Shown here piece by piece: positions 49,748 through 53,132 of a DNA stretch of 64,000 bases. Below the pieces are notes generated by a model that worked only from the letters and a program-made list of their open reading frames with translations, ran no database searches and was not told where the DNA came from. The DNA comes from Paenibacillus sp. 37 (GTDB lineage Bacteria; Bacillota; Bacilli; Paenibacillales; Paenibacillaceae): positions 4,774,001 through 4,838,000 of the forward strand of contig NZ_CP043761.1 in assembly GCF_008386395.1 (NCBI RefSeq). Direction: 5' to 3'. Every line of letters begins with the position of its first letter. The first letter of the stretch is position 1. The translations under genes and the position numbers were made by a program.

Positions 49748-50029
49748 TTAGTAGTCCGTAAAATATTTTACGGAATCACCGGAAGGTTGGCTTTTGCGAA
49801 TCGGCTGTTGTACCTGTTCCCATGCCTGTAAAATCTGTATACCTTCGAGAGTAGACCGATTCTCCCACGCGATGTGCCCGGTTCGTTCAAGCTCCAGCAA
49901 AGACTCATGAATGTAAGCTCTGCTTCGTCCCGTCTTGTTCTCCAGTTCATCCATACGCGGCAGCCTGCGCCGTTGTCCTGTATAGTTCACCAAAATACGT
50001 AAAATCTTGCGTTCAAAGTCGTTCAGCAT
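49748..50029 (-). CDS. Stand-alone winged-helix protein resembling the LexA DNA-binding domain
   Basis: A 93-aa protein whose first 70 residues follow the LexA N-terminal domain in order: FERKILRILVNY, LPRMDELENKTG, SRAYIHESLLELERTGHI and a wing ending GIQIL. The LexA hinge, cleavage site and serine protease domain are absent; only a 20-residue polar tail follows. It overlaps the upstream small gene by 17 nt and shares a promoter carrying two LexA-type boxes. It may compete with LexA at its sites or read other operators. This is inference; a general MarR-like winged helix is the alternative. Confidence 0.68.
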   Translation of the reverse strand: MLNDFERKILRILVNYTGQRRRLPRMDELENKTGRSRAYIHESLLELERTGHIAWENRSTLEGIQILQAWEQVQQPIRKSQPSGDSVKYFTDY

Positions 50030-50234
50030 ACTTTACCTCCCCATTCAGATCCGTAACAGGACGCCATGCCAGAATACCTTGCTCCAGAAATGTTCGGGGT
50101 GAGCCTTCTTTTCCCGCTGATGCTCTAATCATCCCGCCACGTACACTGTTAATTCGAATCTGTCGCTGCGTAATCTGCCCTGCACGATCCATGTAGACAA
50201 GCTCCACCATCTGGCCAATATATTTCCCTAGCAT
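50013..50234 (-). CDS. Small WYL-like/SH3-type protein
   Basis: A 73-aa protein starting MLGKYIGQMVELVYMDRAGQ. The pattern, a strand with Y-x-D-x-x-G, then QRQIRINSVRGGMIRAS and a final FLEQGILAWRPV, resembles a minimal WYL domain, a ligand- or ssDNA-sensing beta barrel in regulators. It has no DNA-binding part of its own, but the next gene in the operon supplies one. GGAGGG lies 6 nt before the ATG at 50234; an ATG two codons earlier touches that site. The family is not certain. Confidence 0.6.
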   Translation of the reverse strand: MLGKYIGQMVELVYMDRAGQITQRQIRINSVRGGMIRASAGKEGSPRTFLEQGILAWRPVTDLNGEVKYAERL

Positions 50235-50250
50235 AATCATCCCTCCGATA

Positions 50251-50264
50251 AGAACATTTGTTTG
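50251..50264. promoter_or_regulatory. LexA-type box 1 (proximal)
   Basis: AGAACATTTGTTTG agrees with the Bacillus SOS box CGAACRNRYGTTYG at 12 of 14 positions. It lies between the -10 box and the start codon of the WYL-like gene. Confidence 0.6.
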
Positions 50265-50272
50265 TATTTCAT

Positions 50273-50302
50273 ATTATATGCGAACATAAGTTCTTTATTC
50301 AA
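50273..50302 (-). promoter_or_regulatory. Promoter of the SOS-type two-gene operon
   Basis: TTGAAT and TATAAT on the minus strand are spaced 18 nt apart. LexA box 2 fills the spacer and box 1 lies just downstream, an arrangement expected for tight repression. Confidence 0.65.
50281..50294. promoter_or_regulatory. LexA-type box 2 (in the promoter spacer)
   Basis: CGAACATAAGTTCT keeps the full CGAAC and GTTC arms of the SOS box; the fourth spacer base and the last base deviate. Confidence 0.6.
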
Positions 50303-52502: not shown

Positions 52503-52796
52503 TTAATTAAACTCCAGCACTGATTCCTCACGCTGACTCATGACTTCAATTAGCATGTTGGCACCCAGACGAAAACCTTGTGCAAACGCTGCTTCCGTAT
52601 GCATGCCCTCACATCTGCCACACAAGTCAAATAACTGTTCAAGCTCACGGAATTCGTTCTCGCTCAATCGATTCTTCCACTGCTCTGTCAGAGCTGCAAT
52701 CTGCCGCCCTAACGCTTGGTATTCAGGATGTGTCGGCATCATCATCTCATCCGGTCGAAGTCGTCCATTATATAATGCTTCTAATATCGAATTCAT
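52503..52796 (-). CDS. DUF6809-like small protein
   Basis: A 97-aa helical protein: MNSILEALYNGRLRPDEMM, then LGRQIAALTEQWKNRLSENE, LEQLFDLCGRCEGMHTEAAF and a final FRLGANMLIEVM. It fits the DUF6809 group seen in Firmicutes, often near mobile or phage-like regulators. Function unknown. GGAGG lies 6 nt before the ATG. It is downstream of the ribbon-helix-helix gene, 142 nt away on the same strand, so it may be controlled by that regulator. Confidence 0.7.
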   Translation of the reverse strand: MNSILEALYNGRLRPDEMMMPTHPEYQALGRQIAALTEQWKNRLSENEFRELEQLFDLCGRCEGMHTEAAFAQGFRLGANMLIEVMSQREESVLEFN

Positions 52797-52938
52797 GTGC
52801 ATCCTCCTGTATATCAATACGCACCTCACTTGAATGAACGTTCTGCACATGGTAGGATATTTATGCAGTCGCTCATTCAAGTGATTGTGGGTTAGGAAGT
52901 AGCGCTGTTCTTCGAGGGACGAACGCTGCTTCCTTTTT

Positions 52939-53118
52939 CTATTTTTGGAGCTCGTCGTAAATCTTCTCAATCCCTTTGCGAACGATGTCTGATCGATTCG
53001 TATTCAGCTTCTCAGCCGAAATATCGAGCTTGTTCATAATTTCCTCGTCAACACGTATCTCAATCGTTCTGCTTTTGGGTTTGTCAGACTTAGGCCGCCC
53101 CATCTTTTTGGCGGACAT
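52939..53118 (-). CDS. Ribbon-helix-helix (CopG-like) regulator
   Basis: A 59-aa protein with a basic N-terminus (MSAKKMGRPKSDKPKSRTIE) and a ribbon-helix-helix domain: the strand RTIEIRVDEEI, helix one MNKLDISAEKL, and helix two RSDIVRKGIEKIYDELQ. Such proteins bind palindromes as dimers. GAGGTG lies 6 nt before the ATG. Its promoter is wholly covered by a 40-bp near-perfect palindrome, so autorepression is very likely. No toxin gene is adjacent; the next gene is the DUF6809 protein. Confidence 0.82.
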   Translation of the reverse strand: MSAKKMGRPKSDKPKSRTIEIRVDEEIMNKLDISAEKLNTNRSDIVRKGIEKIYDELQK

Positions 53119-53132
53119 TTGCTTCACCTCTT

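Follow-up and report, generated by a model that had tools for sequence, protein, structure and literature searches.

A gene pair behind LexA-type boxes encodes a predicted minimal WYL barrel and a LexA-like winged helix in Paenibacillus, with relatives in Bacilli, phages and plasmids

The SOS response is taught as a system of one repressor and one sensor. In a 64,000-nucleotide (nt) stretch of Paenibacillus sp. 37 (contig NZ_CP043761.1, positions 4,774,001 to 4,838,000; hereafter the window), two small genes, A and B, overlap by 17 nt and follow one common promoter, TTGAAT-18-TATAAT, with one LexA-type (SOS) box in its spacer and a second just beyond it (Table 1). Gene A, predicted to encode a stand-alone WYL-type barrel, appears to be an SOS-box gene almost everywhere it was sampled, which is the strongest result of this study, and gene B is predicted to encode a winged helix of the LexA type. 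The open reading frames (ORFs), promoter and boxes reported in a preliminary description of the window, made from the sequence alone, are borne out. The reading frame of gene A is present as described, but its start had been placed at the ATG at 50240; the ATG two codons later, at 50234, is likelier, since it lies 7 nt after GGAGG whereas the earlier one abuts GGAGGG itself.

LexA-type control was assessed across distant relatives of A. With a profile of 20 A sequences (genomes counted at E <=1e-6; the class is Bacilli by inference), the share of genomes that have a relative was 235 of 296 for the order, 193 of 398 for the class and 21 of 398 for a phylum sample, seven of the latter outside the class (E 8e-12 to 8e-7; two of these seven in long ORFs). 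Within the genus all 74 genomes have a match at E <=1e-3, though two (G016 and G073) only weakly and to a long ORF. From the matches listed we drew a non-random set of 80 loci from 75 genera (told apart by number, five represented twice), skipping three with internal stops (G576, G137, G176) and a 313-amino-acid (aa) match (G469). A box with at most one mismatch in eight lies within 110 nt upstream of A at 74 of the 80 loci, compared with 82 of 1958 control windows of the same size taken from the same loci, coding DNA included. Perfect boxes are found in 50/80 promoters versus 11/1958 controls, and the reversed pattern occurs in only 4/80. Among the six loci lacking a box by this test, two had been given a wrong start codon and do have boxes, and four have boxes 121–294 nt upstream; at L139 and L183 the distant box belongs to the promoter of a gene that runs on into A and encodes a LexA domain by itself.

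The boxes are also constant among close relatives. Their conservation across orthologues had been named beforehand as a test of the preliminary description, and in 26 loci (the window and 25 named Paenibacillus loci, the best matching being strains of P. xylanexedens and P. amylolyticus) both boxes are always kept, 27–30 nt apart from start to start, while the flanks and the sequence between them drift. The string TTGAATAAAGAACNNNNGTTCGCATATAAT is found in 66 of 246 collected loci, several of which are the same place twice, and three of the 66 (L136, L175, L193) belong to two other genera. Number alone would not have revealed these boxes: the window holds 34 with at most one mismatch against 25.4 expected (standard deviation 4.8; 8 of 100 shuffles reach 34), which is not significant, so their significance derives from placement and conservation. 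In the host genome CGAACN4GTTC occurs 41 times and the reversed pattern, used as a control, 103 times; the bare pattern is therefore insufficient to define the regulon. The host lexA gene has GAACTTATGTTT upstream.

Table 1. Features of the A-B locus; positions are those of the window, and conservation refers to the 26 Paenibacillus loci.
Feature	Position	Strand	Remarks
Gene A	50013..50234	-	73-aa protein, predicted stand-alone WYL/Sm-type barrel
Gene B	49748..50029	-	93-aa protein, predicted winged helix with the LexA DNA-binding-domain fold, without protease domain
-35 element TTGAAT	50297..50302	-	from sequence; kept in 26/26 loci
-10 element TATAAT	50273..50278	-	from sequence; kept in 26/26 loci
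SOS (LexA) box 1 GAACTTATGTTC	50282..50293	-	within the -35/-10 spacer; perfect GAACN4GTTC in 26/26 loci
SOS (LexA) box 2 AAACAAATGTTC	50252..50263	-	just 3' of the -10 element; 1 mismatch in 8; in 26/26 loci
Gene A ribosome-binding site GGAGG	50242..50246	-	1 substitution (L016) among 26 upstream regions

The product of gene A is modelled as a WYL/Sm-type barrel, an Sm-like beta-barrel fold (predicted local distance difference test score 87), in agreement with the minimal WYL-like protein proposed earlier. Within this genome, an alignment profile of A matches a 303-aa protein with HTH_11, WYL and WCX domains in its WYL part (E 6.9e-4). Among PDB entries it matches two AAA ATPases (8bnv, 1.7e-4; 8bns, 2.4e-4) at their C-terminal end, which we read as a WYL domain. 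Weaker PDB matches are to CapW (7tb5, 0.09) and BrxR (0.99), and unrelated lectins fall at 0.14–0.21. A precomputed PF13280 annotation is carried by two homologues among the best 120 of 500 protein-search matches. Single members of the family all score below the Pfam WYL cut-off (best 19.2 vs 21.8 bits), A of the window on its own has zero Pfam matches, and neither A nor B has a family model of its own in Pfam and NCBIfam scans. Profile matches and model together support a minimal WYL-type barrel. Y14, R24 and R47 are invariant in 80/80 A sequences and F49 is kept in 78/80; among the positions that may line a ligand groove, which include R24 and R47, a Cys occurs in 76/80 and Arg or Lys at position 43 in 66/80. 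In the A protein of the window the two arginines, R24 and R47, are retained, whereas Ala and Glu replace the Cys and one basic residue.

The B protein, which had been said to follow the LexA N-terminal domain, is modelled as a LexA-type winged helix whose nearest solved structures are LexA. Both models are thus related to LexA and WYL domains, and unrelated models had been set beforehand as an outcome that would speak against the preliminary description. Unlike LexA (TIGR00498, PF01726), B has no linker or dimerisation domain, and the absence of a cleavage site and Ser-Lys protease domain, noted earlier, holds, as the 93-aa chain stops 23 residues past W70. Its score against the LexA DNA-binding domain PF01726 is 13.6 bits, below the cut-off of 23.7, while 16 of 23 B sequences match PF01726 at E <=0.1 (best 5.4e-5) and 20 of 23 match HTH_36. 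Residues D4, R7, K8, I12, N15 and I53 are invariant, R11, P24, G34 and W70 nearly so, and the C-terminus reads Y[WF]TxY in most sequences. The recognition helix, which we take from the model and from LexA to span positions 36–46, shows little of this constancy: among 20 non-redundant B sequences, positions 36–39, 41, 45 and 46 are among the most variable (2.7–3.1 bits), with positions 54, 62 and 63 equally so. This variability counts against a fixed reader of SOS boxes and for diverged operators or protein contacts.

To our knowledge, gp6 of GIL01 is the only studied protein with the architecture of B. This protein, a shortened LexA homologue encoded by a tectivirus of Bacillus thuringiensis, is 44% identical to the DNA-binding domain of the host LexA, is made once LexA falls after DNA damage, and activates late genes at a palindrome of its own (PMC6182141). 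Like B, it is a small stand-alone LexA DNA-binding domain under LexA control, which for B is apparent from sequence, and its binding site is distinct from the LexA box, as B's may be. By the published description, on which this comparison is based, gp6 differs from B in activating phage late genes, in having a phage companion, gp7, that binds LexA, and in having no WYL partner in the part of the paper available to us (PMC6182141). The claim that the arrangement is new thus stands in part. In the open-access literature, with subscription journals mostly outside its scope, we found no description of a WYL family that stands alone under SOS control, nor of such a family paired with LexA-type domains, but a stand-alone SOS-controlled LexA domain is already known from gp6, and two further elements discussed below have been published for YolD.

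Within the genus, B is directly downstream of A at 74 of 94 A places and in 56 of 72 genomes (E <1e-9; 27 weaker rows, mostly long ORFs of which one was checked, were excluded). Conversely, 57 of 131 B places have no adjoining A (nine weaker rows excluded), and 18 of 20 such loci picked from the 57 have a box within 150 nt. Across the order, 152 of 296 genomes have a match to the B profile; boxes of B were examined within the genus and in phages. A Viral_contigs scan with B gave no relative. Translated searches of phages returned relatives of both A and B at 43–46% identity from 20 records of P. larvae phages, duplicates included, and in the three phages opened A and B are adjacent and lie between lysis and integrase genes. 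The promoter in phage Fern, TTGCAA-18-TATAAT, has one perfect box in its spacer and another after the -10 element.

Other phages and plasmids pair A with a LexA DNA-binding domain that, unlike B, exceeds the PF01726 cut-off. Phage PVJ1 carries an A relative and, in order after it, genes for such a domain (67 aa, 72 bits), for polymerase V and for YolD; the PVJ1 paper lists the LexA, polymerase V and YolD genes, and its available part does not remark on the arrangement. A is followed by a LexA domain in plasmids of B. subtilis and Rossellomorea (72 and 49 bits), the domain lies two genes past A in a Sporosarcina plasmid (83 bits), and in the Aneurinibacillus plasmid pAT1 A is directly behind a full lexA. 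Of 17 A loci opened in phages and plasmids, a subset of the places found in which two start codons (at L070 and L074, where no gene is annotated) were guessed, 16 have a box within 120 nt, and the remaining one is the locus behind lexA, whose promoter has a box with one mismatch. The second gene of Aeribacillus phage AP45 was considered as a B and rejected, having neither a Pfam match nor a winged-helix alignment. In a B. velezensis plasmid record (L077, 2501-2734), an A relative with an SOS box is divergent from an S8 peptidase gene. The gene aprX is within the LexA regulon of B. subtilis, and with this in mind the box may serve A instead of the peptidase.

The same pair and promoter plan in P. 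larvae phages, and A loci in phage-like plasmids, could mean that A and B are control genes of prophage or plasmid origin that became fixed on the chromosome; they would once have set the timing of late phage or element functions following DNA damage and would now be a relic or a private regulator without a role in SOS itself. Phage GIL01 gp6 plays such a part, and in L232 and L237 an amidase-like gene (by eye) upstream of a B-YolD pair suggests prophage ends. We consider this origin the least probable of the explanations weighed here. The genes GNAT, DUF3892, B, A, DUF3889 and Mn-catalase are present at 25 of 25 Paenibacillus loci, where A and B have 84–88% median identity, and constant neighbours together with kept boxes argue for a settled chromosomal locus rather than a recent insertion. 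There is also no Pfam phage family among the seven flanking proteins scanned. PADLOC gave no convincing match to a defence system.

A recognition helix like that of LexA is retained in the stand-alone LexA domains near A in PVJ1, the Sporosarcina and B. subtilis plasmids, L139 and L183. These domains could therefore read SOS boxes, which their own operons carry. This bears on the idea that a protease-free, uncleavable winged helix-turn-helix protein re-occupies SOS boxes and ends the response with A as a gate, as the preliminary description proposed for B. For B itself the proposal finds no support, as its recognition helix is little conserved and its PF01726 score low; B also lacks the dimerisation half of LexA, and gp6 activates at a different palindrome. 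We therefore regard a damping role as improbable. In L183, at a contig end (1246 bases), a stand-alone LexA domain, A and B stand in series behind SOS boxes, an order which indicates that both kinds of winged helix can coexist within one operon.

Partner genes around A and B bring in YolD, which has been assigned to the WYL superfamily and described from SOS operons (PMC4012209) and proposed as a counterpart of UmuD (PMC6511836). YolD (PF08863) resembles A in being a small SH3/Sm-type protein of Gram-positives and mobile elements that is SOS-controlled in the species studied, and it sometimes adjoins A or B. A is nevertheless distinct: it is too short for the YolD N-terminal arm, A of the window has no PF08863 match and the best A relative reaches 16.6 bits against a cut-off of 27.5, and the two coexist as neighbours. 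In the neighbouring stretches of the 80 A loci (700 nt upstream and 2300 nt downstream, four loci being shorter), B or a LexA domain was found at 8, YolD at 18 and a polymerase at 2, with the caveat that loose matches, such as YolD at 1e-5 to 1e-6 in L147 and L150, may be cross-hits. A clear YolD neighbour occurs at 7 of the 20 B loci that lack A, and at five of these it lies 12–13 nt downstream; YolD is directly upstream of the A-B pair in phages Fern and Sneaky, though not in BN12. From this mix of partners, SOS cassettes appear to be put together by shuffling A, B, the LexA domain and YolD; A and B each have boxes in the absence of the other. The Listeria protein Sif (Lmo0946), of 75 aa and with homologues in Bacilli and Clostridia, also touches SOS, as its loss raises SOS expression, and the words WYL and YolD are absent from the main text of its paper (PMC10794523). 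Identity of A with Sif was rejected, as the neighbours of A in the genomes considered for it include no ferritin gene (by eye) and no link was found.

These neighbourhoods allow another account, in which A and B are SOS-made adaptors of a mutasome of YolD and Y-family polymerase that contact YolD, the polymerase or RecA, the winged helix of B serving as a protein-contact module. The YolD associations, the PVJ1 gene row and the placement of YolD in the WYL superfamily (PMC4012209) fit such a role, as does the pattern in B, where D4, R7, K8, R11, N15, R21, R22 and mostly the Y[WF]TxY tail are kept while the recognition helix varies. A separate suggestion that this tail copies a polymerase tail was dropped, as the tails differ. 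We hold the adaptor role to be somewhat unlikely, given that 62 of the 80 A loci have no YolD and 78 no polymerase in the stretch examined, that neither gene is found among the ORFs closest to the pair in the window and the three polymerase-YolD pairs of the host lie elsewhere, and that several partners are LexA DNA-binding domains retaining LexA recognition-helix residues.

Known regulators of the DNA-damage response that link a WYL barrel to a winged helix are PafBC and DriD (PMC6789036, PMC11804915). In these, helix-turn-helix (HTH), WYL and, where present, WCX domains are on one chain that acts apart from LexA, as more than 90% of WYL proteins have an HTH on the same chain (PMC6789036); WYL arginines and a Phe are needed for function or for binding of single-stranded DNA, which PafBC WYL domains contact through arginines (PMC11804915). 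A has no HTH or WCX on its chain, the HTH being encoded by the separate, overlapping gene B, and the pair is apparently LexA-controlled. The variability of B, the precedent of gp6 and the single-stranded DNA binding of WYL domains lead us to favour a split HTH/WYL regulator, ahead of the mutasome adaptor and, third, the damper.

We tentatively propose, as the reading to which we give most weight while keeping it short of probable, that A and B form a two-gene LexA-repressed module acting as a second wave of SOS. In undamaged cells, LexA on both boxes would block the promoter, as suggested by box position and conservation; on box 1 it would sit between the -35 and -10 elements, a usual place for repression. 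Cleavage of LexA would lead to joint production of A and B. B would then bind a target DNA of its own, not necessarily the SOS box, as gp6 does, and turn a later gene set up or down. A would supply the other half, a sensor or co-factor on its own chain whose ligand is most likely single-stranded DNA or an oligonucleotide. The output would depend on SOS plus persisting damage. The evidence is strong for the regulation, as read from DNA, good for the folds and weak for the mechanism, in which LexA binding, contact between A and B, the ligand and the target genes are inferred. A wider version, in which a WYL barrel reading single-stranded DNA and a winged helix timing late genes or mutagenic polymerases constitute a RecA-independent second SOS sensor across Bacilli and their mobile elements, in effect exchanging the LexA protease for a WYL sensor in trans, is in our judgement doubtful.

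Several further loci were noted. The host genome has three pairs of UvrX-type polymerase and YolD (C1:4729135, C1:3809294 and, on the second contig, C2:354823), each with an SOS box, and a fourth YolD gene (C1:2860305) with no box within 200 nt. A protein of about 104-130 aa, alike by eye, follows YolD or A in the SOS-boxed loci L033 (1781-2173), L034 (1781-2170), L066 (2747-3058) and L203 (926-1285). B-YolD lies just upstream of an Agr/LytTR-type signalling-like cassette (by eye) in L239, L240 and L243, and a host-type lexA is about 2.4 kb from B-YolD in L242. Elsewhere in the window (52503-53127, minus strand), a further pair may be SOS-controlled, made up of a gene of the CopG/RHH type (52939-53127) and a DUF6809 gene that it overlaps, with GAACGTATGTTT beside TATAAT about 60 nt upstream of the CopG/RHH-type start.

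It is important to consider how far such modules may extend the response of these bacteria to DNA damage. A and B are two unnamed families behind LexA-type boxes at nearly all sampled loci, which for A span the class as well as phages and plasmids, and for B are those of Paenibacillus and of phages that infect it. Should the mechanism prove to be another than the one proposed, both are still amenable to deletion, expression and assay in laboratory strains. The pattern suggests that the DNA-damage response may have a further layer not yet described. If A does sense single-stranded DNA and B sets later genes, a large bacterial class would have a second, separate decision step in SOS that would affect induced mutation and the release of prophages.
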